NCBI RefSeq assembly: GCF_004349245.1 | Contig: NZ_SMLC01000008.1 | Span: forward strand, 1 to 64,000 | DNA: 64,000 nt | Direction: 5' to 3' | From: Actinomadura sp. 6K520 | GTDB taxonomy: Bacteria; Actinomycetota; Actinomycetes; Streptosporangiales; Streptosporangiaceae | Shown: positions 24,549-49,903 of the stretch, piece after piece | Layout: each line of letters begins with the position of its first letter | Numbering within the stretch: position 1 is the stretch's first letter | Made by a program: the position numbers and the translations under genes | The notes under the pieces: generated by a model | What the model was told of the DNA's origin: nothing | Seen by the model: the letters and a program-made list of their open reading frames with translations, nothing else | The model's database searches: none

Positions 24549-24569
24549 ATACGAGATGGTGTCTCGTAT
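24549..24569. promoter_or_regulatory. Regulon operator, site A
   Basis: A perfect palindrome: ATACGAGA and TCTCGTAT around TGGTG. It lies between the P450 stop and the amidase start, so it should control the amidase. Core CGAGATGGTGTCTCG. Confidence 0.75.
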
Positions 24570-24574
24570 TAGCG

Positions 24575-26791
24575 CTACAGATCGAGCACCAGGCGGGACG
24601 AGGTGCAGCGGCCCACGCAGATCATCATGGTCTTGCCCGCGGCCCGTTCCTCCTCGGTGAGCAGCGAGTCGCGGTGCTCGGGCTCGCCCGCCAGCACGCG
24701 GGTCTCGCACGCGCCGCAGTAGCCCTTCTCGCAGTCGTACGACAGGCCGGGCACCGCCTCCTGGACCACCTCGATGAGCCGCCGGTCGGCGGGGACGCGC
24801 AGCGTGGCGCCCGTCCGCGCGAGGTGGACGTCGAACTCGGTGTTGAGCGCCGGGTCGAACGCCACCTCCAGCGAGTCGTCGCCGGTGAAGCGCTCGACGT
24901 GCAGGCGGGGACGGATGCCCAGCTCGTCGCAGACCCCCTCCGCCGCGGCGATCATCCCGGTGGGGCCGCAGCAGTAGACGGCGGTGTCCGGTCCGGCCTC
25001 CGCGAGGATCGCCTTCAGGTCCGGGACGCCGGCCTCGTCCTGGGGCAGCACCCGCAGCCGGTCGCCGGCGAGGCCGGCGAGCTCGTCCCGGAACGCCATC
25101 GTTGCGCGGCTGCGGCCCCCGTACACGACGCGGAAGTCGGCTCCCCGCGCGGCCGCCGCTCGCACCATGGCCAGGATGGGCGTGACGCCGATCCCGCCCG
25201 CGAGGAACAGGTAGGACGCGGCGTCCACGAGCGGGAAGTGGTTGCGCGGGCCCCGCACGCCGAACGTGACGCCGTCGCGGGCGAGCGCGTGCACCTCCTC
25301 GGAGCCGCCCCGGCCGTCCGGCTCGCGCAGCACGGCGATGCGGTAGCGCGTGCGGTCGTCCGGGTCGCCGCACAGCGAGTACTGGCGCACGCGGCCGGAC
25401 GGAAGCCGCAGCTCAAGGTGCGCGCCGGGCTCCCACGCGGGCGTTTGCGCCCCGTCGGCCCGCGCCAGCGTCAGGGCGAGCACGCCGTCGGCCGCGGTCT
25501 CGGCGCGCGTCACGGTCAGGTCGTAGGCGGCGCCGAGCGGGGACGCCGCCATGGACGTGCCGGTGGCGCGCGGGCCCGGGGTGAAGACGGCCGGGATCGC
25601 GTCCCAGCCCTTCTGGTTGCCGTTGGTCGGATACCCGACGAGGCCGTCCTCCAGCACCCGGAAGTCCGGGAGGCGGGTCAGCACCTGCGTCATCATCTCC
25701 CGGAACATCGCCCTGGCCAGGTGGGCTCCGGCGCAGCGGTGCGAGCCGATCCCGAAGCTGAGGTGCCGGGACGCGTCGCGGTCGAGCCGGATCTCCGCCG
25801 GCTCGGGGAACACGGCGGGGTCGTGGTTGGCGGCCACCCACGGGATCAGGACGCGCTCACCGGCCCGGACCGGGCAGCCGCCGACCTCGGCGTCGGCCAG
25901 CGCCGTGCGAGCCATCGACTGGGACGGCGCGAACGCCCGCAGGAACTCCTCGGTGGCGCGCTCCAGCAGGTCGGGGGAGTCGATGAGGCGCTGCCGCTGG
26001 CCGGGGTCGCGGCTCAGGTGGACGAGCGTCGACCCGGTCAGCGAGGTCGTGGTGTCGACGCCGCCCGCGATGAGCAGCCCGATCACCGAGACGAGCTCGT
26101 CCTCGCCGAACGGGTTCCCGTGCTCGTCGCGTGCGGTGACCAGGGCGCTGACCGCGTCCTCGGCGGGCTCGGCGCGGCGGTCCCGGATCAGCTCGCGGAT
26201 GCGCCGCTCCATGTAGGCGAGGCCCTCGGCGCCCCGCCGCGCGCGTTCGCTGCCGGCGGGGGCGGCGAAGATGTCGTGCACCGGCCCGGCGAGCTTCGCC
26301 CAGTCCTCCTCGGGGAAGCCCAGCCAGTCGAGGGTGACGGCGGCCGGGACCGGGTTGGTCAGGTCGCGGACGAGGTCCGCCGAGCCCAGCTCGATGAACG
26401 CGTCCACGGCCCGCGCGGCGTGCCGGGCGATCATCGGGCGCAGCCGCTCGACCGCCGCCGGGGTGAGCAGCGGGTTGATCAGGTCGCGGTAGCCGGTGGC
26501 GCGGGGCGGGTCGAGTTCGATCGGGTACTGCTCCAGGCCCGGCCCGCTCGGGATGACGATGGCGACGCCGTCCACGCCGGTCGCCTCGCGCGACGAGGAG
26601 AACGCCGCGTCGTCCCGGGCGATCCGCGCGACGTCGGCGTACCGCGTCGTGTAGACGAACCCGCCGTGCGCCGAGGTGCGCCCGACGGGGCAGCCCTCCC
26701 GGTACGCGGCGTAGTACGCGACCGGGTCGGCGTTGCATTCGTCCGAGTGGTGGTCGAACTGCTCCTGCTGTGTCATCTGCTGCTGTGTCAT
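24575..26791 (-). CDS. Self-sufficient cytochrome P450 (P450 fused to FMN/2Fe-2S reductase), CYP116B-like
   Basis: A 738-aa fusion. Residues 1-410 are P450: I-helix GGVDTTTS, ExxR (EFLR), heme motif FGIGSHRCAG with Cys near 351. Residues 420-640 are a phthalate-dioxygenase-reductase-type flavin/NAD domain (RQYSLCGDP, GGIGVTP, CCGPTGM). The C-terminus is a plant-type 2Fe-2S ferredoxin (CEKGYCGAC, later ICVGRC). This is the P450RhF/class VII layout, needing only NAD(P)H and O2. Start ATG 26791; ATG 26776 is the alternative. It is downstream of the alcohol dehydrogenase gene, on the same strand. Confidence 0.95.
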   Translation of the reverse strand: MTQQQMTQQEQFDHHSDECNADPVAYYAAYREGCPVGRTSAHGGFVYTTRYADVARIARDDAAFSSSREATGVDGVAIVIPSGPGLEQYPIELDPPRATGYRDLINPLLTPAAVERLRPMIARHAARAVDAFIELGSADLVRDLTNPVPAAVTLDWLGFPEEDWAKLAGPVHDIFAAPAGSERARRGAEGLAYMERRIRELIRDRRAEPAEDAVSALVTARDEHGNPFGEDELVSVIGLLIAGGVDTTTSLTGSTLVHLSRDPGQRQRLIDSPDLLERATEEFLRAFAPSQSMARTALADAEVGGCPVRAGERVLIPWVAANHDPAVFPEPAEIRLDRDASRHLSFGIGSHRCAGAHLARAMFREMMTQVLTRLPDFRVLEDGLVGYPTNGNQKGWDAIPAVFTPGPRATGTSMAASPLGAAYDLTVTRAETAADGVLALTLARADGAQTPAWEPGAHLELRLPSGRVRQYSLCGDPDDRTRYRIAVLREPDGRGGSEEVHALARDGVTFGVRGPRNHFPLVDAASYLFLAGGIGVTPILAMVRAAAARGADFRVVYGGRSRATMAFRDELAGLAGDRLRVLPQDEAGVPDLKAILAEAGPDTAVYCCGPTGMIAAAEGVCDELGIRPRLHVERFTGDDSLEVAFDPALNTEFDVHLARTGATLRVPADRRLIEVVQEAVPGLSYDCEKGYCGACETRVLAGEPEHRDSLLTEEERAAGKTMMICVGRCTSSRLVLDL

Positions 26792-26874
26792 GTGCGCGAC
26801 TCCAGGTGCCGCATGGTTTCCGCGCGGTGTTGCCCAGCCGCGCCTCTGGGAACTTCGGGGTCGGCTTCGCGGGG

Positions 26875-27954
26875 TCAGAAGGTCAGGACGGCCTTGCCGA
26901 CCGTCCCGCGCCTGGCCGCGTCGACGGCCTCGCCGATCCGCTCGAACGGGAAGTGCCCGACGACCTCGTGCACCGGGAACCGGCCCGCGGCGTGCAGCCG
27001 CAGCAGTTCGGGCACGAAGACCTGCGGGATCGCGCCGCCGCCGATGATGCCGGTGATCGTGCGGCCGTTGAGGACGCTGCGCCAGTCGAAGCTCATCTCC
27101 GCGCTCGGCCCGACGCCGATCACGCCGCAGCGGCCGAGCGGGGCGAGGGCCTCCACGCCGGTGCGGAGGACGTCCGCGCGGCCGGTGGTCTCCAGGACGA
27201 AGTCGAACCCGTCCGGGGCGATCGAGCGCAGTTCTTCGGCGGCGCCCTCGCCCCCGGTCACGCCGTGGGTGGCGCCGAGGGACCGGGCCGTGGCCAGCCG
27301 TTCGGCGTTGAGGTCCACGACCGCGACGGTCGTGCATCCGCTGAGCGCCGCCGCGAGGACGGAGGCGATGCCCACCGACCCCGCCCCGAAGATCGCGATC
27401 GACGAGCCGGGGGCGGGCCGCAGCACGTTGAGCACGCCGCCCGCACCGGTCTGGAAGCCGCAGCCGAACGGCCCGGCCAGGGTGAGGTCCGCGTCCTTGC
27501 CGATCGGCACGACGGCCCGCTCCGGCGCGACGACGTGGTCGGCGAACGCCGACTGCCCGAGGAAGTGCGCGTTGATCTCGGTGCCGCCGAGCGAGACGGC
27601 CGAGGACCCGTCGGGGCGCCGGCCGCTGAAGTTGAGCGCGTCGAACCGCAGGCAGTAGCCGGGCGAACCGGTCAGGCAGGGCCGGCACCGCCCGCACGAG
27701 GTGAAGGACAGCGCCACGTGGTCGCCGGGCGCGACGGACGTGACCCGGTCGCCGGCCCGCTCCACGATGCCGGCGCCCTCGTGCCCGAGCACGGCGGGCG
27801 CCTCGAAGAACGTCGCGAACTCCAGGTCGGTCGCGCAGATGCCGACCGCGCTGAGCCGGACCAGGACCTCGTCCGGGCGGGGCGGGCCGAGTTCCACGTC
27901 CCGCAGGGCCAGGGGCTCTCCCGGTCGGTCCAGTACGGCGGCGGTGACCCGCAT
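26875..27954 (-). CDS. Zinc-dependent alcohol dehydrogenase (benzyl/aryl-alcohol type)
   Basis: A 359-aa MDR dehydrogenase. Catalytic zinc ligands C40 (GICATD) and H58/E59 (GHEG), structural-zinc cysteines in CGRCRPCLTGSPGYC, NAD motif GAGSVG. It reads closest to the class I/III and XylB-like group, suiting oxidation of an alcohol made by the P450. ATG 27954 has GGAGG upstream. It is divergent from the aldehyde dehydrogenase, sharing the region with operator B. Confidence 0.88.
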   Translation of the reverse strand: MRVTAAVLDRPGEPLALRDVELGPPRPDEVLVRLSAVGICATDLEFATFFEAPAVLGHEGAGIVERAGDRVTSVAPGDHVALSFTSCGRCRPCLTGSPGYCLRFDALNFSGRRPDGSSAVSLGGTEINAHFLGQSAFADHVVAPERAVVPIGKDADLTLAGPFGCGFQTGAGGVLNVLRPAPGSSIAIFGAGSVGIASVLAAALSGCTTVAVVDLNAERLATARSLGATHGVTGGEGAAEELRSIAPDGFDFVLETTGRADVLRTGVEALAPLGRCGVIGVGPSAEMSFDWRSVLNGRTITGIIGGGAIPQVFVPELLRLHAAGRFPVHEVVGHFPFERIGEAVDAARRGTVGKAVLTF

Positions 27955-27979
27955 GCGGCCTCCAAGGTCATTTCATAAA

Positions 27980-27994
27980 GAGATACGGCATCTT
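27980..27994. promoter_or_regulatory. Weak operator variant, site B
   Basis: GAGATACGGCATCTT holds an AGAT/ATCT inverted repeat resembling the regulon palindrome but with different spacing. TTGACA (27993-27998) overlaps its end, reading towards the aldehyde dehydrogenase. A weaker match than the other sites. Confidence 0.4.
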
Positions 27995-28028
27995 GACATG
28001 TGGGATAGTTCCGGTCAAGGATTCCGGT

Positions 28029-29486
28029 ATGTCCGCACTTGAGATTCCGGTCGCCCGCCAGCTGCTCGACGGAGCCTGGGTTCCGGCCCGTGACCAGGGC
28101 GAACTTCCCGTTCTGGACCCGGCGAACAGTAAGGTTATCCAGCAAATCGCGCGCGGCGGCCAGGCCGACGTCGACGCCGCGGTCGCCGCGGCCCGGCGCG
28201 CCTTTCCCGGCTGGGCCGCCACCTCGCCCGCCGAGCGCGGCGCGCTGCTGGGCCGCTGGGCCGCACTGGTCATGGAGCGCGTCGAGGACCTCGCCCGGTT
28301 CGAGGCGCGCGACGTCGGCAAGCCGCTGTCCGGCGGGCGGATGAACGCGTTCATCGCGCAGGGGATCATCGAGTACTTCGCCGGCGCCGCCGACAAGCTC
28401 ACCGGCGTCACGCTGCCGACCCGCACGCCCGACTACCTCGGTTTCACGATCCCGGAGCCGTACGGGGTGTGCGCGGTGACACTTCCGTGGAACGTTCCGA
28501 CCCTGCTGTCGGCCGCCAACGTCGCGCCCGCGCTCGCGGCCGGCAACACGGTCGTGCTCAAGCCGTCGGAGGTCGCCCCGCTCGGCCCGCTGGCGCTGGC
28601 CGAGCTGGCCCGCCAGGCCGGTCTGCCGCCCGGGGTGTTCAACGTCGTGACCGGGCTCGGCGCGGAGGCGGGCGTGGCACTCACCTCCCACCCGGGCATC
28701 GACCACATCAGCTTCGTCGGCTCCACCGCGACCGGGCGCGCGGTGATGCGCGCCGCGTCCGAGAACCTCGTGCCGGTCAAGCTGGAGCTGGGCGGCAAGT
28801 CGCCCAACGTCGTGTTCGCCGACGCCGATCTCGACGCGGCGATCCCGGCGATCGTCGGCTCGATCACCGAGAACGCGGGCCAGAACTGCTACGCGGGCTC
28901 GCGGCTCCTGGTCGAGGAGTCGATCCGCGACGAGGTGACCGAGCGCGTCGTGGCGGGCATGCGCGCCGTCCGGCTCGGGACGTGGGACCAGGACCTCGAC
29001 ATGGGGCCGCTGGTCAGCCGGGAGCAGCGCGAGCGCGTGCTCGGCTTCCTGGAGGAGGCGCCCGGCGAGGGCGCGCGCGTCGTCACGGGCGGGGCGAAGG
29101 CCGAGGTGCCGGACGACGGCTGGTTCGTGGCACCGACCGTCCTGGACCGGGTGGACCGGGGGATGCGGGTCGTGCGCGAGGAGGTCTTCGGGCCGGTGCT
29201 CGCGATCCAGGGCTTCACCGGGACCGCGCAGGCCGTCGAGATGATGAACGACACCGACTTCGGGCTGCTGGCCTGCATCTGGACCGGCGACGTGTCGCGG
29301 GCGCTGCGCGCGGCCAAGGAGGTGCGGTCCGGGCAGGTCGCCGTGAACCAGTTCCACGACGCGGGCGTCATCGGCTTCCCGTTCAACATGCAGAAGGACA
29401 GCGGGTTCAGCGCGGGCGGCGGATACGCGGCGCTGCGCGAGTACACGCAGGAGAAGGCGGTCGCGGTGCGGCTGCTCGACCGCTGA
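28029..29486 (+). CDS. NAD(P)-dependent aldehyde dehydrogenase
   Basis: A 485-aa ALDH-superfamily enzyme with catalytic E253 (LELGGKS) and nucleophile C287 (GQNCYAG), plus VTLPWNVP and GFPFNMQKDSG. It oxidises an aldehyde to the acid, a natural follow-on to the divergent alcohol dehydrogenase. ATG 28029 has AAGGA at good spacing. It probably forms a single-gene transcript before operator C. Confidence 0.93.
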   Translation: MSALEIPVARQLLDGAWVPARDQGELPVLDPANSKVIQQIARGGQADVDAAVAAARRAFPGWAATSPAERGALLGRWAALVMERVEDLARFEARDVGKPLSGGRMNAFIAQGIIEYFAGAADKLTGVTLPTRTPDYLGFTIPEPYGVCAVTLPWNVPTLLSAANVAPALAAGNTVVLKPSEVAPLGPLALAELARQAGLPPGVFNVVTGLGAEAGVALTSHPGIDHISFVGSTATGRAVMRAASENLVPVKLELGGKSPNVVFADADLDAAIPAIVGSITENAGQNCYAGSRLLVEESIRDEVTERVVAGMRAVRLGTWDQDLDMGPLVSREQRERVLGFLEEAPGEGARVVTGGAKAEVPDDGWFVAPTVLDRVDRGMRVVREEVFGPVLAIQGFTGTAQAVEMMNDTDFGLLACIWTGDVSRALRAAKEVRSGQVAVNQFHDAGVIGFPFNMQKDSGFSAGGGYAALREYTQEKAVAVRLLDR

Positions 29487-29555
29487 GCCGCCCGCGCCGC
29501 GATTTCCGGCGCGGGTGTTGACACGCCCCGTGAGCGGGGTTCAGAGTTGCCCTCA

Positions 29556-29580
29556 CATTGCGAGTCGGTGACTCACAATG
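29556..29580. promoter_or_regulatory. Regulon operator, site C
   Basis: Arms CATTGCGAGT and ACTCACAATG (one mismatch) around CGGTG. A further half-site CGAGATGG follows directly at 29581. It is 38 bp before the quinone oxidoreductase start and heads the eight-gene transport operon. Confidence 0.65.
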
Positions 29581-29617
29581 CGAGATGGCTTGAATCGGCT
29601 GAGGGCGGAGGTCCCTG

Positions 29618-30646
29618 GTGAAAGCGCTGGTCCAGACGGGGTTCGGTGGCCCGGAGGTGGTGTCGCTGCGGCACATCGCCGACCCGGTCCCCGGTCCCCG
29701 TGACGTGCTGGTCCGGGTACGGGCCTGCGCGCTGAACCGGCTCGACGTCCTGCAGCGCCGCGGCCCCGCGGTGCTGCCCGGCTTCCGCCTCCCGCACATC
29801 GCCGGCATGGACGTGGCCGGCCACGTCGCGGCGGCCGGGGACGAGGTGGCCGGGTACGCGCCCGGCGACCGCGTGGTGATCGACCCGACGCACGGCTGCG
29901 GGACGTGCGCGCGCTGCGGAGCCGGGGACCCCGGCCACTGCCCCGCCGTCCGCGTCGTCGGCGGGAACACCGCCGGCGGCTTCGCCGAGTACGTGCGGGT
30001 GCCGGCCCGGCTCGTCCACCGCGTCCCCGAGCACATCGAGCTGGACGAGGCCGCCGCGCTGCCGTCGGCGTGGAGCACCGCCTGGCGCGCCACGGTCACC
30101 GTCGGCGCCGTCGCCGCGGGCGAGACCGTGCTGGTGCAGGCCGCGGCCAGCGGCGTCAGCATCGCCGCGGTGCAGCTCGCCAAGCGCGCCGGGGCGCGGG
30201 TCGTCGCGGTCGCGGGCAGCGACGCCAAGCTCGCGCTCGCCGCCGACCTCGGCGCCGACCTGCTGCTGCACAACGACGCCGACGTCGTCGCGGCCGTGCG
30301 CCGCTTCACCGGCGGCGAGGGCGCCGACCTCGCGCTCGATCACGTGGGCGCGGCGACCTGGCAGACCTCCCTGGACTGCCTGCGCGCGGGCGGGCGCCTG
30401 GTGACGTTCGGCAACACCACCGGCGACGAGGTCACGATCTCCCTCGCGGGCGTGTACCACCGCGGCCTGCGGGTGCTGGGCACGGGCGCCTACACGGAGC
30501 CCGAGTTCGCCGCGATGCTGGACGCCTACTTCGGCGGCGGCCTGCGGACCGTCCGGATGGCCGAGTACGGGATGGCCGAGCTGCCCGCCGCGTTCGCCGC
30601 CGCCGAGTCGCGGGCGGCCATCGGCAAGGTCCTGGTCCGCCCATGA
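29618..30646 (+). CDS. Zinc-containing MDR oxidoreductase (quinone-reductase-like)
   Basis: A 342-aa MDR protein with cysteines CGTCARCGAGDPGHC for structural zinc and an alanine-rich nucleotide-binding stretch (VLVQAAASGVSIAAVQLA) typical of quinone oxidoreductases. GTG 29618 has GGAGG upstream. Its stop overlaps the amidohydrolase start by ATGA. The substrate is unknown. Confidence 0.85.
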   Translation: MKALVQTGFGGPEVVSLRHIADPVPGPRDVLVRVRACALNRLDVLQRRGPAVLPGFRLPHIAGMDVAGHVAAAGDEVAGYAPGDRVVIDPTHGCGTCARCGAGDPGHCPAVRVVGGNTAGGFAEYVRVPARLVHRVPEHIELDEAAALPSAWSTAWRATVTVGAVAAGETVLVQAAASGVSIAAVQLAKRAGARVVAVAGSDAKLALAADLGADLLLHNDADVVAAVRRFTGGEGADLALDHVGAATWQTSLDCLRAGGRLVTFGNTTGDEVTISLAGVYHRGLRVLGTGAYTEPEFAAMLDAYFGGGLRTVRMAEYGMAELPAAFAAAESRAAIGKVLVRP

Positions 30647-32130
30647 CCGGGCCGAACATGACCGAGCCGAACATGACCGGGTCGAACGGGTCACCGCTCC
30701 TGGTCACCGGCGGGACGGTCGTGACGATGGCGCCCGGACGCGAGGTCGTCACCGGCGCCACCGTCGCGGTCGCGGCCGGGCGCATCGCCGGAGTCGGCGC
30801 CTATGGAACGCTCCGCGCGGCCCACCCCGGCGCCGCGGAACTCGACGCGACCGGCTGCGTCGTGATCCCCGGCCTCGTCAACGCCCACCAGCACTGCACC
30901 GTGGACCCGCTGATCCGCAGCGTGATCCCCGACGACATCGACGCCCAGGAGGCGATCTTCGGCTGGGCCGTGCCCCTGCACGAGCGCGTGACCGGCGACG
31001 ACGACGAGCTGTCGGCGACGCTGACCGCCGCGGAGTCGCTGCTGCGCGGGGTCACCACCGTCCTGGAGGCGGGCACCGTGGCGCACCCCGGCCGGGTCGC
31101 CGCGGGGCTGGCCGCGGCCGGGATCCGGGGCCGGGTCGGCGGCTGGGGCTGGGACGCCCCGGGCGTGCCGCACTCGCTGCCCGCCGCCGAGGCCCTCGCC
31201 CGCCAGGAGGAGATCGTCCGGAGCCTCCCCGCCGCGGGCCCGGTGACCGGATGGGTCACGCTGGTCGGCCACGACCTGGTCAGCGACGAGCTGTTCACCG
31301 GCGCCGCCGAGCTCGCCGAGCGCCTCGGCACCGGCCTGACCTGCCACATGTCGCCCGGCCCCGGCGACGCCGAGTCGTACCTGCGGCGCACCGGCGTCCG
31401 CCCGCTCGTCCACCTGCGCGAGCTGGGCGTGCTGGGGCCGCGGCTGCTCCTCGGCCACGCCGTGTGGCTGGACGACGCGGAGGTCGAGGCCGTCCTCGCG
31501 ACCCGCACGGCGGTGGCGTCGTGCCCGGGCGCGTACCTGCGGCTCGGCCAGGGGTACACCCGGGCCGGGCGGCACGGCGAACTCGTCCGCCGCGGCGGCC
31601 GCGTCGCGCTCGGCTGCGACGCCCACAACGCCGGCGACGCACCCGACGTGCTGCGCACGGCCGGGCTGCTGGCCGGCCTGGAGAACGACCGGGGCACCTG
31701 GCCGCTGCGCGCCGACGAGGCGTTCGCACTGGCCACGTGCGCCGGTGCCGAGGCCGTCGGCCTCGGCGACCTGATCGGGTCGATAGAGGTCGGCAAGGCC
31801 GCCGACCTCGTCGTGCTCGACACGCACGACCCGGCCTGGACGCCTCCCGGCGACCTGGCCACGCACCTGGTGTGGGGTGCACCCGGCCACACCGTCCGCG
31901 ACGTCCTGGTCGACGGGAAGGCGGTCGTCCGCGACCGCCGGATCACGACCGTCGACACCGCGGAACTCCGCCGGGAGGCGGAGTCGAGATCGGCCGCGCT
32001 GCTGCGCGCGGCCGGACTGCGGATCCCCCGCCGCTGGCCGGTGGTCACCGCGACCGCCGGCCCACCGAGCTCCCGCAACCTGCTCGTCTCACCGTCCGAT
32101 CGAAAGGACCCCCGAGGTGAAGAACCGTAA
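30643..32130 (+). CDS. Deaminase-type amidohydrolase (ATZ/TRZ, SsnA-like)
   Basis: A 495-aa metal-dependent hydrolase. Ligands H82/H84 (NAHQHC), H235 (CHMSP), H272 (LGHAVW) and D326 (GCDAHN) match the deaminase/chlorohydrolase subgroup. Such enzymes remove amino groups or halogens from purines and s-triazines. The first 17 residues are a repetitive MTGPNMTEPN extension with alternative ATG starts. It overlaps the BMP lipoprotein start by 14 nt. Next to a nucleoside-like importer, an amino-heterocycle is a sensible substrate guess. Confidence 0.85.
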   Translation: MTGPNMTEPNMTGSNGSPLLVTGGTVVTMAPGREVVTGATVAVAAGRIAGVGAYGTLRAAHPGAAELDATGCVVIPGLVNAHQHCTVDPLIRSVIPDDIDAQEAIFGWAVPLHERVTGDDDELSATLTAAESLLRGVTTVLEAGTVAHPGRVAAGLAAAGIRGRVGGWGWDAPGVPHSLPAAEALARQEEIVRSLPAAGPVTGWVTLVGHDLVSDELFTGAAELAERLGTGLTCHMSPGPGDAESYLRRTGVRPLVHLRELGVLGPRLLLGHAVWLDDAEVEAVLATRTAVASCPGAYLRLGQGYTRAGRHGELVRRGGRVALGCDAHNAGDAPDVLRTAGLLAGLENDRGTWPLRADEAFALATCAGAEAVGLGDLIGSIEVGKAADLVVLDTHDPAWTPPGDLATHLVWGAPGHTVRDVLVDGKAVVRDRRITTVDTAELRREAESRSAALLRAAGLRIPRRWPVVTATAGPPSSRNLLVSPSDRKDPRGEEP

Positions 32131-37929: not shown

Positions 37930-37976
37930 TTGTGAGATACCGTCTCTCATTGCTTGACAGCCGTCCATCTCACATC
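37930..37976. promoter_or_regulatory. Regulon operator, site D, with promoter
   Basis: GAGATACCGTCTC (37934-37946) has 4-bp GAGA/TCTC arms extended outwards by TG and CA. TTGACA (37954-37959) follows, then a reversed half-site CCATCTCACA (37965-37974). It lies 15-60 bp upstream of the FAH gene. Confidence 0.65.
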
Positions 37977-42177: not shown

Positions 42178-42344
42178 CCGTTCCTCGCTTCTGCCTGGGC
42201 CACCGGCCGCGTCCCGTGCCGTGCGGCGGCTCCGTGGCGGCATGACACGCCATCTCATCATGAGCGAGAGCGTCATGGCGGGTCATTCACCACACCGAAG
42301 GGTAAAGCGCCCAGTGCATAACGTATCGGTAGCCTTACCGCATG

Positions 42345-42365
42345 CCATCTCTCACTGCGAGACGC
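42345..42365. promoter_or_regulatory. Regulon operator, site E1
   Basis: CCATCTCTCACTGCGAGACGC contains the regulon half-site GAGATGG (reverse strand) and TCTC/GAGA arms around ACTGC, in everted order. It is about 170 bp upstream of the IclR start. Confidence 0.5.
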
Positions 42366-42463
42366 AATCATGATGAACGTGACGCTCCTAGTCAAGCCGG
42401 TTGGGATCCCTCCGTACAACCCCTTGACATGACGAGCGGCACTGGGGAAGTCTGTACACGATG

Positions 42464-42478
42464 CGAGATGGTATCTCG
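42464..42478. promoter_or_regulatory. Regulon operator, site E2
   Basis: CGAGATGGTATCTCG is a perfect 6+3+6 palindrome. TTGACA at 42424-42429 lies upstream, and the site is downstream of that -35, as expected for a repressor site. It is 52 bp before the Rieske alpha start. Confidence 0.75.
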
Positions 42479-42529
42479 AATTATTGAACGATGCTGCTGA
42501 GGAAGCGGCGTGGAAGGGGGTGGAGCCCG

Positions 42530-43888
42530 ATGCCCGGACCGGATGGCGCGGGACTTCCGGGGCGGCTGGTCGTCGAGGACTGGGACGCGCTGACTTTCCG
42601 CGTGAATCGGGTCGCGTACCGCTCGGAGGAGATCTTCCAGGCGGAGCGCGACCGGATATGGGCGCGTACATGGCTGTACCTGGGCCATGAGACGGAAGTC
42701 GCCACGCCCAACGACTTCAAGACGCGAACGCTCGGCGGCCGGCCGCTGATCTTCTGCCGGGACACCGAGGGCGACATCCAGGCGTGGCTCAACTCCTGTC
42801 CGCACCGCGGCACCATCCTGTGCCGCGAGCGCGAGGGGTCCACCAAGCTGTTCCAGTGCTTCTACCACGCGTGGACGTTCCGCAACAGCGGTGACGTGGC
42901 GGCGATCCCCGGCAAGGACGCCTACGAGGCCGCGGGCGAGGGCTTCCTCGACTCGATGCGGCTCCGCGCCGTCCCCCGGCTGGAGAGCCACGAGGGGTTC
43001 GTGTTCGTCTCGTTCGACCCGGACGCCCCGCCGCTGCTGGACTACCTCGGGGACGCCGCCGACTACATGACGATGATCTCCGAGCAGCACGAGGCCGGCA
43101 TGGAGGTCCTGCCCGGCACGCAGCTGTACGGGGTGCGCGGCAACTGGAAGCTCGGCGTCGAGAACGCCATGGACGGCTACCACTTCTCGCCCACGCACAA
43201 CACCTTCGTCGGGTACCTGCGCGAGACCGGCTTCGCCGTCACCGACGACGACCAGTACGCCTACAACCTCGGCAACGGGCACAGCCTCCTCGTCCTCACC
43301 GGGCACGGCGGCCGCATCAGCATGCTGTGGGAGCCGCGCTTCGGCGAGGACGAGAAGGTCCGCACCGAGGCGCACCGCGCCGAGATGGACAGCCGTCTCG
43401 GCCCCGAGCGCGCCAAGTACGTCGCCGACGAGAGCCACATCCTGTTCGTCTGGCCGAACCTGCTGCTCTTCGACCTCGAAGGGCTGTCGATCCGCCAGCT
43501 CGAACCGGTCGCGGCCGACCGCACCGACGTGCGCGCCTGGCAGCTCGCCCCCCGCGGCGAGGACGCCGACACCCGCGCGTTGCGGATGAAGACGATGGTC
43601 AGCTTCGTCGGCCCCGGCGGGCTCGCCACGCCCGACGACATCGAGGCGTACGAGGCGGTGCAGCGGGGCATCGAGGCCACCGCCGCCGACATCCGCGACG
43701 GGATGGACTACAGCGACATGTCCCGCGGCATGGTCGACGAGGTCAAGGGCGTCCAGGGCCGCTCCATCGACGAGGGCGCGATGCGCGGCTTCTGGCGGCA
43801 CTGGGTCGGCGCGCTCGGCGCCGTGGACGGCCTGGTGGTCGGCGGACACCGTCCCGAGCGCTTCCTTGAGGGGAGGAACGTGCGATGA
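42530..43888 (+). CDS. Rieske ring-hydroxylating oxygenase, alpha subunit
   Basis: A 452-aa protein. Rieske ligands C90, H92, C110 and H113 (CPHRG ... CFYHAW). Catalytic-iron region with D215, H218 and H223 (NAMDGYHFSPTH). This is the catalytic subunit of an aromatic-ring dioxygenase or demethylase. No reductase or ferredoxin gene is beside it; the reductase half of the P450 fusion or a remote gene would have to serve. ATG 42530 has GGAG upstream. Confidence 0.94.
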   Translation: MPGPDGAGLPGRLVVEDWDALTFRVNRVAYRSEEIFQAERDRIWARTWLYLGHETEVATPNDFKTRTLGGRPLIFCRDTEGDIQAWLNSCPHRGTILCREREGSTKLFQCFYHAWTFRNSGDVAAIPGKDAYEAAGEGFLDSMRLRAVPRLESHEGFVFVSFDPDAPPLLDYLGDAADYMTMISEQHEAGMEVLPGTQLYGVRGNWKLGVENAMDGYHFSPTHNTFVGYLRETGFAVTDDDQYAYNLGNGHSLLVLTGHGGRISMLWEPRFGEDEKVRTEAHRAEMDSRLGPERAKYVADESHILFVWPNLLLFDLEGLSIRQLEPVAADRTDVRAWQLAPRGEDADTRALRMKTMVSFVGPGGLATPDDIEAYEAVQRGIEATAADIRDGMDYSDMSRGMVDEVKGVQGRSIDEGAMRGFWRHWVGALGAVDGLVVGGHRPERFLEGRNVR

Positions 43889-44406
43889 CCGCGCCCACCG
43901 ACGGCACCGCGCTCATCGGCGGCCGTGAGATCACCCGCGCCGACGTGGAGGACTTCCTCTACGCCGAGGCGGAGATCCTGGACGCCTGGAAGTACGACGA
44001 CTGGCTCGCGCTGTTCGAGCCCGGCGCCCGCTTCGAGGTGCCCGCCACCGACTGGAAGGGCGAGTCGTTCTTCGAGTCCGGGTCGTTCGTCACCGACGAC
44101 TGGGACCTGCTGCGCGCGCGCGTCAAGCGGCTCAAGTCGCGCAAGGCGCACGCGGAGAACCCGCCGTCCCGCACGCACCGGATGATCTCCAACGTCCGGC
44201 TGCGCGAGCACGACGAGCCGGGCCTGCTCCGGGTCACGGCGTCCTTCATCGTCCACCGGGCCCGCGACGGCGAGTTCGACGCCTACGTGGGGCGCTACGA
44301 CCACCTGCTCGTCCCGGGCGCCGAGGGCCTGCGCTTCCGGCGGCGCCGGGCGATCCTCGGCCACGAACACCTGTCCGCCGGCGCCCGGCTGAGCTTCATC
44401 CTCTGA
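43885..44406 (+). CDS. Rieske oxygenase beta subunit
   Basis: A 173-aa NTF2-fold small subunit (VEDFLYAEAEILDAWKYDDW; MISNVRLREH; VTASFIVHRARDGEFDAYVGRYD). Its start overlaps the alpha stop by ATGA, so both subunits are made together, probably as an alpha3beta3 oxygenase. Confidence 0.92.
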   Translation: MTAPTDGTALIGGREITRADVEDFLYAEAEILDAWKYDDWLALFEPGARFEVPATDWKGESFFESGSFVTDDWDLLRARVKRLKSRKAHAENPPSRTHRMISNVRLREHDEPGLLRVTASFIVHRARDGEFDAYVGRYDHLLVPGAEGLRFRRRRAILGHEHLSAGARLSFIL

Positions 44407-44416: not shown

Positions 44417-45595
44417 ATGATCCAACACAACCTCGCGTTCCGGTTCCGCGAGGACGCGCCGGCGGAGGCCGTCGAGTCCATCCTCGCGGAGCTGCGCACG
44501 TTCCCGAAGCGCTACCCGGCCATGCGCGACTTCTCGCTCGGGCCCAACATCAGCACCCGCAGCGACCGGTACACCCACGCCTTCTCGGTGAAGTTCGAAA
44601 CCCAGGCGGACCTGAACGCCTACCTGGAGAGCGAGTCGCACGAGCGGTTCGTCCGGGAGCGTTGGCGTCCGGTCATCGACGACCACATCATCGTCACCTA
44701 CGAGATCCCCGGTAGGCCGGGGCGGCCGCGCGGCCCGTACGGGATGGAGTACGCCCGCATCGAGGTCCCCGACATGGACCGCACGATCGACTTCCTCCAG
44801 TACCACGTGGGGCTCCAGCTCGAACAGCGCACCGACGAGTACGCCTACCTGCGGACCGACATCGAGCACCACTCGATCGAGCTGATCAGCGCACCCGGGC
44901 ACGAGGTGGGGCACACCGTCGCGATCGGCTACAGCGTGGAGAGCGACGAGGTCCTCGCCGACCTGCGCAAGCGGGTCGCCGACGCCGGCCTGGAGATCCT
45001 CGAACTGCAGGACCGGCAGAAGGACCTGTGCGCGGACGGCTTCGCGGTCCGCGACCCCGACGGGCTGATCGTGGAGCTGTTCACCGGCTTCCTGGAGTAC
45101 GCCGAGCCGCCGGTCACGGACCTGCGCCCGGTCGACCTCGTCCACCCGTTCATCGCGACGACGAAGTACGAGGAGTCGCTGGAGTTCTACACCAAGGTGC
45201 TGGGCTTCCTGCCGTCGGACGAGATCGTGGGCTCCACCACGTTCCTGCGCTGCGAGGACCGCTACCACCACAGCCTCGCCCTGCAGAACAACAAGGAGCA
45301 CTACGTCGCGCACCTGTGCTTCGCGACGAAGAGCCTCGACCACGTCATGCGCTTCCGGGCCCGCGCCCTGTACAAGGGCGAGCCGATCGCGTCGGACCTG
45401 GTGAACCACTCGGCGTCGACGTCCATCGCGTTCTACATGCACGAGCCGCTGCACGGCCCCCGGTTCGAGCTGTGCGACCGGCACCGCGTGTTCACGCCGG
45501 AGGAGCACGAGACGCACCGTCCCCGCCGGATGCCGCCGGACCCGCGCAACATCGACGTGTGGCGCCCGGCCTCCGACGACTGGGGCCGCTTCTGA
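44417..45595 (+). CDS. Dabb-domain fused to two VOC domains; extradiol dioxygenase
   Basis: A 392-aa protein. Residues 1-100 are a stress-responsive dimeric A/B-barrel (Dabb) domain (MIQHNLAFRFREDAP, SHERFVRERWRPVIDDHI). Residues 108-225 are a first VOC module and 238-355 a second, with the type I extradiol iron triad H243, H299 and E351. It should open a catechol-like ring by meta cleavage. The Dabb fusion is unusual. ATG 44417 has GAGGAAA upstream. Confidence 0.85.
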   Translation: MIQHNLAFRFREDAPAEAVESILAELRTFPKRYPAMRDFSLGPNISTRSDRYTHAFSVKFETQADLNAYLESESHERFVRERWRPVIDDHIIVTYEIPGRPGRPRGPYGMEYARIEVPDMDRTIDFLQYHVGLQLEQRTDEYAYLRTDIEHHSIELISAPGHEVGHTVAIGYSVESDEVLADLRKRVADAGLEILELQDRQKDLCADGFAVRDPDGLIVELFTGFLEYAEPPVTDLRPVDLVHPFIATTKYEESLEFYTKVLGFLPSDEIVGSTTFLRCEDRYHHSLALQNNKEHYVAHLCFATKSLDHVMRFRARALYKGEPIASDLVNHSASTSIAFYMHEPLHGPRFELCDRHRVFTPEEHETHRPRRMPPDPRNIDVWRPASDDWGRF

Positions 45596-46794
45596 GTACG
45601 GCACCGGAGTACGCGGACATCGTCCGCGTACTCCAGGTCCTGGACGGCGTCCCGTCGCCGTACGGGCACGAAGCCGCCGCCGCCGTGCGCCTCGCCTCCT
45701 GGTGCACGGCGCGGTGGCCGTGGCTCGACTGGGACGTCCAGCGGTACGGCAAGGGCGGCGCCAACCTCCAGGCGGGCGACCCGCGGGGTGTGCTGCTCTA
45801 CTCGCACCTGGACACGTCGCTCAGCGGCGACCCGTCCGAGGACCGCCCGATCACCGCCCGCGCCGACGCGCCACCCCCGCTGAAGGTCACGGCGTCCGAG
45901 GCCGAGGGCTTCGGCCTGGGCGTGGCAAGGGCTCCTGCCGCCGCCGCCCTGATCGGTTTCGTCTCCGCCGCGTCCCGAGGCATACCCGCACGGCTCCTCC
46001 TGGCCGGCTCGGGCACGCACCGGAGCACCCTGCACGGCCCCGGCGGCAGGCCCCGCAGGACCGGCCTCGACCACTACCTCGCCACGGCGCCCCGGCCGCC
46101 CGCCGCCATCGTCGCCAAGGGCGGCCCGCCGACGATCCTCTGGGAGGAGCCGGGCGCCCTCTACCTGCGGCTGCGCGTCGCCGGCCGGCACGGCGCCGTC
46201 CTGGCCCGCGAGTCCGCCGACCCGCCCGGCGGCGTCATCGCCCACGCGGCCCCGGTCATCGAGGCCGTCGAACGCTGGCGCGCGGCCTACGTCGCCGCCG
46301 GCCAGGCCCCGGGCACGCAGGTGGGCGCCGCCGCCGGAATCGGCTCGCTCACGGCGGGCCGCCCCGACAAACCCGACCTCTTCCCGGCCCTGCTGGAGGC
46401 CGGTATCTACGTCGTGACGGTCCCGGGAGCCGACCCGCAGGCAATAGCCGACGCTCTGCGACACGATGTCGAAACGGCCTGCGCGAACGGCCCCCTGGCC
46501 ACCTGCACGGTCGAAGTGGACGTGGACGAGATTCACCCCGCCGCCGCGACCGCCGCCGACGCACCGATCGTCCGCGCCGCCCGCGCGGCCTGGCAAACGG
46601 AGTTCGGCGCCTCCCCGCCCCCGATCACCGGCTGGACCGGCTCGACGGACGGGGTCGTCCTCAGAGCCCACGGAATCGACACCGTCCGCCTCGGGCCCGC
46701 ATCACGCCCGTCCCCGGAAGACCCCCGCTGCGACGTCCTGGACGTCGCGTCCCTGGCCGCCTACGCCCGCCTCTACGCCCGCCTCCTCTCCTGA
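45592..46794 (+). CDS. M20-peptidase-like protein with degenerate metal site
   Basis: A 400-aa protein of the M20/ArgE-DapE fold. It keeps HxD (H72/D74 in YSHLDTS), but the expected second metal Asp and the DEE pair are absent (SEAEGFGLGVARAP; LLAGSGTHRST). It may be inactive, bind differently, or act as a non-metallo hydrolase. No ATG, GTG or TTG fits; CTG 45592 overlapping the upstream stop as CTGA is the best start. Last gene of the Rieske operon. Confidence 0.7.
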   Translation: MSTAPEYADIVRVLQVLDGVPSPYGHEAAAAVRLASWCTARWPWLDWDVQRYGKGGANLQAGDPRGVLLYSHLDTSLSGDPSEDRPITARADAPPPLKVTASEAEGFGLGVARAPAAAALIGFVSAASRGIPARLLLAGSGTHRSTLHGPGGRPRRTGLDHYLATAPRPPAAIVAKGGPPTILWEEPGALYLRLRVAGRHGAVLARESADPPGGVIAHAAPVIEAVERWRAAYVAAGQAPGTQVGAAAGIGSLTAGRPDKPDLFPALLEAGIYVVTVPGADPQAIADALRHDVETACANGPLATCTVEVDVDEIHPAAATAADAPIVRAARAAWQTEFGASPPPITGWTGSTDGVVLRAHGIDTVRLGPASRPSPEDPRCDVLDVASLAAYARLYARLLS

Positions 46795-46858
46795 AGGACT
46801 TCCGGACGGTGGGCTCCGACCTGTACTTCGCCGTCGCTGGCCCCTAATTATTCCTTGA

Positions 46859-46872
46859 CACGAATATTCGTG
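46859..46872. promoter_or_regulatory. Palindromic ArsR-type operator over promoter
   Basis: CACGAATATTCGTG is a perfect 14-bp palindrome that overlaps the end of TTGACA (46855-46860), 20 bp before the ArsR-like start. The pattern suggests autorepression. Confidence 0.6.
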
Positions 46873-46891
46873 ATGAGGAATGCTTTGCCGC

Positions 46892-47746
46892 ATGGACGAC
46901 GTGCTGGCCGCACTGGCCGATCCCGCACGCTGGCGGCTCGTGTGCCTGCTGGCCGAGCGGCCGCGCTCGGTCGGGGTGCTCGCGCGGCTCGCCGGGGCGC
47001 GCCAGCCGCAGACGACCAAGCATCTGCAGACGCTGGAACGGGCCGGCGTGGTCATTTCCCAGCGCACCGGCCAGCGCCGCATCTACGCGCTGCAGCCCGC
47101 CCCGCTGCGGGAGCTGGCGGCCGCACTCGGGCGGCTCGCCGACACCGCCGACGAGGTCGGCGGTCCGCGCGAGACCTTCGACCGGTACGGGCTCAGCCTC
47201 CGTGCGGAGCGGCTCGCCGCGCAGCGGCCGGGGTGGGCCGACGACCGCTCTTTCCGGTTCTCCCGGTCACTGGCGGGGCGCCCCGCGCTGGTGTGGCGCC
47301 ACCTGACCGAGGCCGGGCTGCTGGCCCGGTGGTGGACGCCCGACGGCCTGCGCGTCTCCGAGCTCGTCTTCGAGGCGCGGCCGGGCGGGCGGATCGTCCA
47401 GGAGTACCGCGACGCCGAGGACGCCGACGGCTCCGAGCCGGTCGCGGGCCGCGCGGAGGGGGTCGTCGAGGACGTGCGCCCGGCCGAGCACCTCGGCTAC
47501 CGGCTCGCCCCGCTGCTTCCCGATGGCGGTACGGCCTTCACCGCCCACGTCGGCATCGATCTCCAGCGCGCCGCGGACGGCACCGACCTGCACGTCCACT
47601 ACCGGATCACCGACAGCACGGTCGACTCCGCGGACTTCATCGCGGGCATCGAGATCGGCTTCGGCCAGAGCCTCGACAGGCTCGCGGCCGTCCTCGCCGC
47701 CGACCCGCACGACACCGATCACGACACTGAAACAAGGAGCACGTGA
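46892..47746 (+). CDS. ArsR-type HTH fused to SRPBCC/AHSA1 domain
   Basis: A 284-aa fusion. Residues 1-75 are an ArsR winged HTH (ALADPARWRLVCLLAERPRS, QPQTTKHLQTLERAGVV). Residues 115-280 are an AHSA1-like ligand-binding domain (FSRSLAGRPALVWRHLTEAGLLARWWTPDG). This ArsR-AHSA1 pairing as one protein lets a ligand pocket control DNA binding. ATG 46892 has GAGGAA; ATG 46880 is too close to it. It is transcribed with the RibD-like gene. Confidence 0.84.
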   Translation: MDDVLAALADPARWRLVCLLAERPRSVGVLARLAGARQPQTTKHLQTLERAGVVISQRTGQRRIYALQPAPLRELAAALGRLADTADEVGGPRETFDRYGLSLRAERLAAQRPGWADDRSFRFSRSLAGRPALVWRHLTEAGLLARWWTPDGLRVSELVFEARPGGRIVQEYRDAEDADGSEPVAGRAEGVVEDVRPAEHLGYRLAPLLPDGGTAFTAHVGIDLQRAADGTDLHVHYRITDSTVDSADFIAGIEIGFGQSLDRLAAVLAADPHDTDHDTETRST

Positions 47747-47747
47747 A

Positions 47748-48350
47748 ATGAGCGAGCAGAGCAGTGGCCGCAGGGTGACCGCCAACCTGGGCCTCACCCT
47801 CGACGGGCGCTACCACGGCCCTGGCGGGCCTGGCGATTTCGCGGCGTTCGCCCCGTACGTGACCACCGAGGTCGCGCGAGACCAGCTGGCACGCATCTGG
47901 AAGGACGCGACGACGGCGGTGCTCGGCCGGATCAACGCCGAAGGGTTCATGGGCTATTGGCCCCCGGTCGCCGCGGACGAGGACGCCGACCCGCGTGACC
48001 GCGGGTACGCCCGGTGGCTGACCGAGACGGAGAAGGTGGTGTTCTCGACCACCCTGACCGAAGCGCCATGGGAACGGACCCGCCTGGTGAACGCACCCGT
48101 CACGGACGTCGTCACCGAGCTCAGGAGCACCGGTGCGGGCGACATCCTCGTCAACAGCAGCGCCAGCCTCATCAAGCCGCTCCTGGCGGCGGACATGGTC
48201 GACCGGCTGTACCTCATGATCTTCCCGGAGATCGCGGGCGGCGGGCGGCGCCTGTTCGAGGACGGCCTGCCGGCCACGCGCTGGGCGCTCGCCCACCAGG
48301 AGACCGGCAAGCTGGGCGAGATGGCCATGGTCTACGACCGGGCCCGCTGA
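47748..48350 (+). CDS. Dihydrofolate-reductase-like (RibD C-terminal domain) protein
   Basis: A 200-aa RibD_C/DHFR-fold protein (ANLGLTLDGRYHGPGG at the start, DILVNSSASLIKPLLAADMVDRLYLMIFP in the middle). Such proteins use NADPH in mostly unknown reductions. ATG 47748 has AAGGAG upstream and starts one base after the ArsR stop, so it is probably the regulator's target. It ends at a bidirectional terminator. Confidence 0.85.
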   Translation: MSEQSSGRRVTANLGLTLDGRYHGPGGPGDFAAFAPYVTTEVARDQLARIWKDATTAVLGRINAEGFMGYWPPVAADEDADPRDRGYARWLTETEKVVFSTTLTEAPWERTRLVNAPVTDVVTELRSTGAGDILVNSSASLIKPLLAADMVDRLYLMIFPEIAGGGRRLFEDGLPATRWALAHQETGKLGEMAMVYDRAR

Positions 48351-48394
48351 CCGCATCCCGCCGCGACCCGATCGGCCTGCTTCGGCCAGGGGTG

Positions 48395-48434
48395 TCGTGG
48401 CCCCGTTCACACCGCTCTTGGAACGGGGCCACGA
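48395..48434. terminator. Bidirectional terminator between convergent genes
   Basis: A perfect 14-bp stem (TCGTGGCCCCGTTC and its complement) around a 12-nt loop, centred between the RibD-like and TauD-like genes. Confidence 0.88.
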
Positions 48435-48450
48435 GCTTCAGGGCGGACGG

Positions 48451-49527
48451 TCACAGCCCCCAGGTCTCGTTGGGGACGACCGCGTCCGCGATCTGGAAGC
48501 GGCCGCCGGGCAGGGGCTCCTTCGCCTTGCCGTCCGGCGTGTTGATGACGTTCTTGCCGAAGCCGGGCACCATCGGGCGGCCGACTGCCCGGCGCAGCCA
48601 GAGCCGCAGCAGGTGGCGGCGCCGCTCGGGCTCGGGGTGGTCGACGTACTCGGTGCGCGAGTGCAGCGCGGCGTAGTTCAGGAGCCACTGGACGTCGCCG
48701 GGCTGGAAGTCCATGTCCAGCGGAAGGCCGGGCTCCTGCGCGATCTCGTCGAACAGGTGCAGCACCTCGATCTGCGCCTCGGTCAGCCGCGGCACCTCCG
48801 GGTACTCCTGCGCCGTGAAGATCATCTGGGCTCCGGCGTAGGTGCTGAAGACACCGTCGACGTAGCTGCAGATCGGCGACTGGTAGGTGTTGGCCGGGGC
48901 GTCGGGGTCCTGCCGGCGCCAGTCCCAGTGCCAGGGCTCGAACAGCAGCGGCGCGAGGTCGGGGCGGCGGCGCAGGATCTCGTTGTAGATCGTGGTGCCG
49001 CTGACCAGGCTGCTCGCGCCGCCCTCGCGGGCGCCGCGCAGGCACATCAGGGCGACGACGTCGGAGCTGTCGGAGTGGAACGGCAGCCGGTCCCGGACCC
49101 GCGACGGCAGCGCGGTCGGGTCGTCCATGGTCTTGTTCGAGGTGGCGATGACGTGGTCGAGGACGTCGCCGTACTGGTTCTGCGGCATGGGTGAGCCGAG
49201 GTGCAGGCCCATCAGGTAGAAGATCGCTCCCGCGACCGCGTCGCCGTACTCCTCCGTCCGGAGCCCGCGGACGAGGATGAACCCGCGGCCCGAGTCCATC
49301 TGCTGGGCGCACTCCTCGATGAGGCCGGTGGAGGCGTCCAGCGGGTAGTCGGCGGCGGTGACGGTGCGCAGGTCGGGGTCGTCGGCGACGAACCGGCGGC
49401 CGACGGCCTCCAGCTCGTCCCGCTCGGCGTCGGACAGGTGGTAGATCCACTCGGTGGAGCCGGCCAGTTCGTCGCCGCGCCAGGCGGACGGCCCGGAAAT
49501 CGGGGACAGGCCAATGGTCGTGGACAT
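48451..49527 (-). CDS. TauD/TfdA-family 2-oxoglutarate-dependent dioxygenase
   Basis: A 358-aa oxygenase. Iron ligands H151/D153 (PFHSDSSD) and distal H289 (AALHSRTEYVD), followed by RRRHLLRLW for 2-oxoglutarate. The family cleaves ethers, sulfonates and esters by hydroxylation. ATG 49527 has GAGG upstream; GTG 49539 is possible. Operator F and a -35-like TTGACG sit about 270 bp upstream, so it probably belongs to the regulon despite lying 6.6 kb from the Rieske operon. Confidence 0.9.
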   Translation of the reverse strand: MSTTIGLSPISGPSAWRGDELAGSTEWIYHLSDAERDELEAVGRRFVADDPDLRTVTAADYPLDASTGLIEECAQQMDSGRGFILVRGLRTEEYGDAVAGAIFYLMGLHLGSPMPQNQYGDVLDHVIATSNKTMDDPTALPSRVRDRLPFHSDSSDVVALMCLRGAREGGASSLVSGTTIYNEILRRRPDLAPLLFEPWHWDWRRQDPDAPANTYQSPICSYVDGVFSTYAGAQMIFTAQEYPEVPRLTEAQIEVLHLFDEIAQEPGLPLDMDFQPGDVQWLLNYAALHSRTEYVDHPEPERRRHLLRLWLRRAVGRPMVPGFGKNVINTPDGKAKEPLPGGRFQIADAVVPNETWGL

Positions 49528-49903
49528 GATGCCTCGCACTTCAGAAAGGAGGGCAGGACCGCGGACGGAACGCCGCGGCCCGGGAGACAGGGCGGCGGAC
49601 GTCGTGCGTTAGAAGGGCGTCTGCGGAAGGCCGGCCGCCGTGCCGGGACGCATGCCGGTACGCGGCGGACGCACGCGCAGCGGCTCAGAGTAGGCGCGCA
49701 CAGCCGACCCAAGGCCCCGCGAGGCGACTCGGCTCATGGCGTGCTCCCGACTGTGGAGGATCTCCCGCAAACCGTAAGCCAACCTCCCAGATCCCGTCAA
49801 GCGAGACACCATCTCGTATTGCTGTCGCCAAGCGGCCCGCCGCCCGTTCATGTCACCCCCGAGGTAGGGCGCGAAGTCACTGGCATCACCTAAAATCGAA
49901 CGT
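49528..49903. other. 376-bp divergent regulatory region
   Basis: No gene is supported here. It contains operator F (minus-strand TauD promoter) and the promoter and SOS-like box of the gene at 49904. The TauD leader would be about 240 nt. Confidence 0.6.
49802..49816. promoter_or_regulatory. Regulon operator, site F
   Basis: Minus-strand CGAGATGGTGTCTCG, identical to the 15-bp core of site A. TTGACG follows directly on the minus strand, with TTACGG 17 bp further, so the operator abuts the -35 of the TauD promoter. Confidence 0.75.

Follow-up and report, generated by a model that had tools for sequence, protein, structure and literature searches.

Why does one palindrome recur at the promoters of a catabolic gene cluster, and which protein reads it? 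This question is raised by a 64,000-nt stretch of the genome of Actinomadura sp. 6K520 (contig NZ_SMLC01000008.1, positions 1 to 64,000; the whole stretch is referred to here as the window), in which five copies of the palindrome, sites A, C, D, E2 and F, are spread over 25 kb. The initial annotation, made from the sequence alone, had taken these copies for the mark of an undescribed regulon, and the product of an IclR-family gene lying among them (41389–42165, minus strand; the true start is probably M38 of a 295-amino acid open reading frame, ORF) for its simplest reader. The comparative data favour this protein as the reader of one regulon. The IclR protein is likely to be an autoregulated local repressor of the catabolism of lumichrome, the core of riboflavin, with the palindromes and a third box as its operators. 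The predicted pairing of regulator and operator is well supported by comparison between genomes. We infer from sequence that IclR binds this DNA, that it represses rather than activates, and that its effector is lumichrome or an early product.

The 15-mer CGAGATGGTRTCTCG occurs exactly at site A (24552–24566, plus strand) and site F (49802–49816, minus strand), and site E2 (42464–42478, plus strand) is one mismatch away from it, as initially described. A search of the assembly (8,190,264 bases in 445 contigs) gave three matches counted as exact, all inside the window, and none for a reversed control pattern, in keeping with the earlier judgement that chance recurrence is unlikely; no other exact copy was found. 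The 13-mer GAGAYGGTRTCTC occurs exactly four times in the genome, always in the window (A, D, E2 and F). Looser matching behaved as expected by chance: 13-mers with one mismatch were found at 11 further places (10 for the control), 15-mers with up to two mismatches at 22 places in the genome (nine for the control), and 15-mers with up to three mismatches at three places in the window (3.76 expected). The signal thus lies in exactness and symmetry, not in loose similarity. The full unit is a 21-bp palindrome of the approximate form ATRCGAGAY-NNN-RTCTCGYAT. A symmetric matrix built from the five sites, with the 3-nt centre set to zero, scored them at 31.0 (A), 22.5 (C), 27.4 (D), 30.5 (E2) and 27.7 (F), while the next-best place in the window scored 8.1. 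At up to two mismatches, the 21-mer pattern was found at seven places in the genome: the five sites of the window, one on contig C222 next to an IclR paralogue 56–58% identical to the window protein, and one on C240, a contig of 4.3 kb. A further 21 places had three mismatches, giving a total of 28 against eight for the control. The regulon extends beyond the proposed 25 kb: the C222 locus carries both an IclR gene and the motif. Rfam and tRNA scans of the window gave no match.

The IclR protein of the window contains the HTH_IclR (42.9 bits) and IclR_C (67.1 bits) domains, both above the Pfam cut-offs. When compared with seven NCBIfam families it reached the cut-off of none of them, scoring 94.7 bits with PcaR/PcaU/PobR (cut-off 284.75) and 90.7 bits with BhcR (cut-off 350). 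Orthologues with 80–98% identity were found in seven other genomes of the genus. All eight genomes with the orthologue have two to five sites at no more than one mismatch, while none of the 31 lacking it has any. The same relationship was observed over the whole sample of 298 family genomes from which these counts come, the eight best IclR candidates per genome being scored: at least two sites were present in all 16 genomes with an IclR protein of at least 53% identity, compared with two of the other 282, and the reversed control pattern was matched in six of the 298. Fisher tests gave values of 1.6e-8 for the genus and 1.2e-24 for the family, which overstate the certainty because they ignore the relatedness of the species. 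The initial annotation had proposed a genome-wide scan, with hits scattered over unrelated genes counting against the regulon; run as pattern searches, the good hits of the genome itself cluster in the island, and those of the 298 family genomes track the IclR orthologue.

Named genomes supplied 75 loci of the IclR subfamily, the range including Actinomadura, Streptomyces, Acidimicrobiales, Thermoleophilia and metagenome-assembled genomes (MAGs) of Chloroflexi. A site scoring at least 18 is present in 61 of them, and there are 116 such sites in total; these loci are not independent, nine being from Actinomadura and several from genomes already in the family sample. On the same loci, 200 permuted matrices found a mean of 0.9 sites in 0.83 loci; the largest values (44 sites, 31 loci) could be explained by a permutation close to the original column order. 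Among 92 distinct sites, position 10 is A or G in 87 and position 12 is C or T in 90, and this R-N-Y centre counts as support because the matrix ignored the centre. For 14 IclR genes with identities not exceeding 40%, the surrounding DNA scored no more than 8.8, and three longer stretches (L068–L070) no more than 9.9. Members of the subfamily share a recognition helix that in most cases reads S[KR][APS]T[AT]HRY; distant IclR proteins differ there. As for the two family genomes with two sites at no more than one mismatch and no close IclR gene (G127 and G146; loci L172 and L170), their sites lie in a cluster encoding a P450 (46–49% identity), a Rieske protein (27–29%), an FAH-family protein (35%) and an IclR protein of 29% identity; this distant IclR may use a similar motif, hinting at a second pathway.

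Two further arrangements were seen in the subfamily. In five Microtetraspora loci (L105, L106, L108, L109 and L122) an IclR gene of 56–62% identity lies beside a TauE-type exporter gene and lacks a full site; three of the five (stretches L057, L059 and L065) contain the degenerate sequence TTGCGAGACAGCATCCTGTCA, scoring 11.3. In loci of other genera (L054, L055, L056, L058, L060, L063 and L064) two divergently oriented IclR paralogues are separated by about 3–4 kb, and the interval contains one or two sites.

The gene neighbours initially assigned to the sites (amidase, quinone oxidoreductase, FAH, Rieske/IclR and TauD) held when examined with Pfam. Alignments of five to eight sequences per promoter, window included, showed that the sites keep their place relative to conserved promoter-like hexamers, most clearly at C, D, E2 and F. 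Site A (24549–24569; palindrome ATACGAGATGGTGTCTCGTAT), before amdA, overlaps a -10-like TATAGT (24551–24546, minus strand), a hexamer weakly kept in relatives. Site C (29558–29588) lies immediately downstream of a conserved TTGACA (29518) and TTCAGAGT (29540); its palindrome starts at 29558, not at 29556 as first given, and ends at 29578, and it is followed by a third box, TGCGAGATGG (29579–29588), placed back to back with it across a 3-nt gap and kept in seven of seven aligned sequences. Judged by eye, site C thus consists of three alternating boxes. The palindrome of site D (37930–37950 within 37930–37974) lies near TTGACA (37954), and its additional half-site (37965–37974, minus strand; kept in eight of eight) falls in the promoter spacer before AAAGAT (37978); were a second dimer to bind at this half-site, its centre would lie about 25 bp from that of the first. 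The half-sites of the form TGYGAGATGG noted earlier beside C (29579) and D (37965, minus strand) are present, their TGYGAGATG part being kept in all seven aligned sequences at C and all eight at D, but E1 reads TGAGAGATGG, which is not exactly that form. E1 (42344–42365) is a back-to-back pair of half-sites in the iclR leader, in which TCTCGCA-N3-AGAGA, on the iclR strand, is kept in eight of eight. Site E2 (42461–42481) precedes the Rieske operon, downstream of a conserved TTGACA (42424). Site F (49799–49819) touches TTGACG (49800–49795), with TACGGT at 49776–49771, both hexamers being on the minus strand and directed towards tauD. A weak sixth site, absent from the initial list, was found between the alcohol dehydrogenase (ADH) and aldehyde dehydrogenase (ALDH) genes (27978–27998; score 7.9); its right arm contains TTGACA (27993–27998), and its GGCATCTTGACATG half is kept in eight of eight. 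Overall, the TGCGAGAY half-sites are paired facing inwards across 3 nt; a back-to-back arrangement with the same 3-nt spacing is also seen at C and in the iclR leader. In the Actinomadura clusters in view, some of which are cut by contig ends, amdA with site A is present in five of eight genomes and tauD with site F in seven of eight, in one of them on a separate contig (G273:C40).

Between site F and tauD lies a small ORF of 42 codons (49609–49737, minus strand), which seems to be conserved, in its frame and C-terminal half, in the six further Actinomadura leaders of the alignment, two of which have an in-frame insertion; it is a candidate leader peptide or small protein.

Taken alone, the Pfam set of the window pointed to a meta-cleavage pathway without naming its substrate. 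A more precise match is the lum operon of Nocardioides (Pimelobacter) simplex ATCC 6946, the products of which have been reported to reconstitute lumichrome/riboflavin catabolism in vitro (Sinha et al. 2025, published November 2025; PMC12746152). Lum letters were assigned here by position, following the order, size and products told in that paper rather than its accession table, and the identities given below are to the P. simplex lum stretch. The window contains counterparts of lumC–F, N–R and T–Y, and C222 those of lumH (65%), lumI (68%), lumJ (56%) and lumM (61%) together with a thiamin-enzyme gene. The latter, a TPP_enzyme_C gene, is by its position a candidate for the thiamin-dependent decarboxylase gene lumK/lumL; with regard to the reductase and ferredoxin LumA/LumB, a DUF2231-Rieske gene was noted beside the C222 site. 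Taking both loci together, the homologues of LumC, D, E, H, I, J, M, U, W, X and Y share 56–73% identity. In P. simplex, an IclR gene (68%) and lumC are separated by about 1.5 kb containing a reductase-type gene, and sites scoring 17.3 and 18.5 precede lumC and lumH. The term 'undescribed' thus no longer fits the enzymes, which match a published operon, but it stands for the regulator and its operators, which were not found in print in searches of open-licence PubMed Central (PMC) articles.

Gene by gene, the cluster begins with amdA (23355–24479, minus strand), encoding a member of the acetamidase/formamidase family by Pfam, with no match in the 60-kb P. simplex lum stretch. It is followed by genes for a LumU-type single-chain P450-reductase-ferredoxin of 738 amino acids (24575–26791, minus strand; 60% over 741 aligned positions; start a matter of judgement), a zinc ADH in the LumT position (26875–27954, minus strand; 31%) and an ALDH in the LumN position (28029–29486, plus strand; 62%, also recognized by Pfam), for which start 28029 was chosen because the alternative, 27993, falls within the weak site. 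All genes from here to the IclR gene are on the plus strand. The zinc dehydrogenase/quinone oxidoreductase (QOR; 29618–30646) has its best P. simplex match in the LumT-position gene (31%), and the second amidohydrolase (AmidoH2; 30727–32130, in the frame 30685–32130; start judged) is 28% identical to the LumM-position gene. The transport genes encode a BMP-type ABC substrate-binding protein in the LumO position (32141–33196; 35%; start judged) and an ABC ATPase with two permeases in the LumP–R positions (33198–36888; 39–55%). After glyoxalase-fold and SnoaL-like genes (36947–37848; Pfam) come the FAH-family gene in the LumV position (38002–38856; 57%; start judged from the footprint), the amidohydrolase in that of the LumW pyrone hydrolase (38936–40090; 72%), the HpcH/HpaI aldolase in that of LumX (40075–40896; 60%) and the cupin in that of the LumY hydratase (40893–41282; 63%). 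Beyond iclR, the plus strand carries genes for the alpha and beta subunits of a Rieske dioxygenase (LumC and LumD positions, 42491–44406; 73% and 67%), a Dabb-VOC extradiol dioxygenase (LumE position, 44417–45595; 70%) and an M20-type metallohydrolase (LumF position, 45685–46794; 54–55%; start judged). The TauD/TfdA-type dioxygenase gene (48451–49539, minus strand; Pfam) has, like amdA, no match in the 60-kb P. simplex stretch. The ORFs 30691–31890 (minus strand) and 45702–46847 were rejected as genes, being wrong frames of the plus-strand amidohydrolase and M20-type genes. A gene for an ArsR-AHSA1 fusion and a RibD_C gene (46880–48350) are part of the cluster in this genome as well as in A. 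livida (G276); G085, G247, G204 and G174, in which this region is covered, lack the pair. A gene for a protein kinase with WD40 repeats (50466–52436) adjoins the edge of the cluster.

Nine neighbourhoods in which the motif was found by pattern alone were inspected. In G213, a single contig of 8.1 Mb, the close IclR genes lie at 3.985 and 3.989 Mb, and motif hits at 7,102,460 and 8,035,225, megabases away; both hit loci are of the lum type, one with XO, isochorismatase, amidohydrolase and NMT1 genes and the other with QOR, ALDH, ADH, P450 and BMP genes. Similar cases are the hit in G202:C53, a P450/ADH/ALDH locus on a different contig from the IclR gene, and that in G118:C6, which adjoins NMT1-type transport genes. 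The hit on G273:C40 is a tauD gene (93%), which was discarded as an unlinked target: judging from the order of the genes and from the broken end of G273:C299, the two contigs probably carry parts of one cluster in a draft assembly. In several cases, though not in all, the motif thus marks pathway genes that are distant from the IclR gene. The G085 genome, a single contig of 6.7 Mb, has a site at the C222-type locus and another at the main cluster, with no less than 0.36 Mb between the two loci; the split into two loci is therefore not an artefact of draft assembly.

In the mechanism proposed, the palindrome would be the operator of the IclR protein encoded at 41389–42165, which would sit over or beside the promoters of amdA, the ALDH gene, the QOR-transport, FAH-aldolase and Rieske operons, tauD and iclR itself, and so keep the genes of lumichrome catabolism silent until its C-terminal domain is bound by a compound of the pathway (lumichrome or an early product), which releases the protein. 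Repression is proposed because sites A, C and E2 lie on or after the promoter. Against the proposal, no more than two sites score above 14 across 60 kb in P. simplex, and both are modest, which could mean a more limited regulon in that species or drift of the motif. The findings considered in the next three paragraphs also weigh against this proposal or parts of it, and each is set beside the alternative it bears on.

The first concerns the sign of the regulation. The sites at D, F and the ALDH gene, which lie against the -35 box, would suit an activator as well. The same IclR could therefore act from the same sites as an activator or in a dual role, activating from D, F and the ALDH site and repressing from C, E2 and A, its own gene included. 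The two positional classes recur in the aligned orthologues: C and E2 lie after, and A over, the promoter hexamers, and the sites at D, F and the ALDH gene abut or overlap a -35-like TTGACA or TTGACG. Moreover, the title of a review cited in PMC10470539 calls IclR proteins activators and/or repressors. Sites touching the -35 box suit repression too, however, and simple repression needs no extra assumption, so that an activating role, although a serious possibility, is the less probable one.

The second concerns the substrate. LumI homologues are missing in four of the eight Actinomadura genomes with the cluster, and LumH in 10 of 15 genomes tested; the substrate may therefore differ from lumichrome in some of them. 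The cluster might degrade another carboxylated aromatic or a quinoxaline, with only the lower half in common with lumichrome catabolism, as would be consistent with the motif-bearing amdA and tauD genes lacking a match in the P. simplex stretch and with the four Actinomadura genomes that have a window-type cluster without LumI or LumH. In strain 6K520 itself, on the other hand, counterparts of LumH, LumI, LumJ and LumM and the thiamin-enzyme gene are present on C222 under the same motif, and the window has a LumU-type P450 with its ADH and ALDH. A different substrate is thus judged somewhat unlikely, although the LumH and LumI gaps, together with amdA, tauD and the second amidohydrolase, would allow for a variant of the pathway or for a similar substrate.

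The third concerns the identity of the reader. Of the 75 subfamily loci, 14 lack a site of at least 18 in the stretch seen, and nine of these stretches exceed 15 kb. A single site is present in 21 of the 282 family genomes without a close IclR gene, compared with six of 298 genomes for the reversed control, so that similar palindromes may serve other proteins; in the one of these 21 genomes examined (G016), as also at G209:C580, no lum gene lies near the hit. Another DNA-binding protein, such as the ArsR-type protein encoded at 46880 or an unlinked regulator, could accordingly read the palindrome, with IclR as a passenger. ArsR was matched in only one of the 75 loci and was not seen in the clusters of G085, G247, G204 and G174, and on this comparison, which did not extend to every other regulator family at each locus, we regard a reader other than IclR as improbable. 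Finally, a mobile or structural repeat family, which recurrence and symmetry alone would permit, can be dismissed, as can chance, in view of the genome-wide exactness, the gap in matrix scores and the 21-mer counts: the copies are about 21 bp long, differ from one another, keep their promoter positions and have no exact copies elsewhere in the genome.

The IclR protein may be the first known regulator, with its operator, for the breakdown of vitamin B2 (lumichrome), a claim we hold with about even confidence: in groups as far apart as Actinomadura, Streptomyces, Acidimicrobiales, Thermoleophilia and the MAGs of Chloroflexi, one subfamily would use one motif and would control unlinked pathway loci in trans. 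With the same reservation, the motif on the tauD, amdA and QOR-second amidohydrolase operons suggests that flavin-ring breakdown has an undescribed variant in which the LumH–M steps would be replaced in many genomes; it is proposed because the motif marks operons absent from the published pathway. The enzymes (2025), the type of regulator and the architecture of IclR operators are already known. In the main text of PMC12746152 the word 'IclR' does not occur and the matches to 'regulat' shown concern signalling; nor was IclR found in the parts seen of the accompanying comment (PMC12752717). Neither this motif nor any regulator of lumichrome catabolism was found in open-licence PMC articles, supplementary files excluded, and literature searches with printed site sequences gave matches that, judged by title, were unrelated. 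Pathway genes, unlinked ones included, can be traced through the motif, which also suggests functions for genes like tauD. PMC12746152 describes lumichrome as a plant and quorum-related signal; the switch would thus decide when soil actinobacteria remove that signal, and an IclR protein sensing lumichrome or its product could serve as a biosensor.

The arrangement can be compared with three known systems. IclR-type regulators are also found at the ARO microcompartment loci of Actinobacteria (PMC10470539), which, as described there, resemble the present case in having an IclR gene beside a meta-cleavage pathway and satellite loci. A direct link was rejected, as a search for the PF00936 shell protein gave no match in the genome of 6K520; shell genes were present in four of 25 relatives, but, as far as contig numbers and coordinates tell, not at the IclR loci. 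The described operators of the IclR family include group 1 (GKTYCRY-W3-4-RYGRAMC) and group 2 (TGRAACA-N1-2-TGTTYCA), with three-box sites described for 32 groups and for PcaU (Suvorova and Gelfand 2021, PMC8222616). By eye, no site here is a full match to either group, and the main text of that paper contains no GAGA or GCGAGA string. The half-site GCGAGAY fits RYGRAMC at five to six of seven positions, with an A-to-G change. The inward-facing pair has a 3-nt centre, matching neither of the spacings given for that arrangement, and the centres at D, if a second dimer binds there, would be about 25 bp apart instead of the usual 18–22. Inward-facing and back-to-back pairs, and three-box sites, are common to both. 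With the lum operon of P. simplex, the cluster shares gene counterparts at 31–73% identity and the IclR gene near lumC with a site before lumC, whereas here the pathway is split over two loci, the window and C222, and the motif also marks amdA and tauD.

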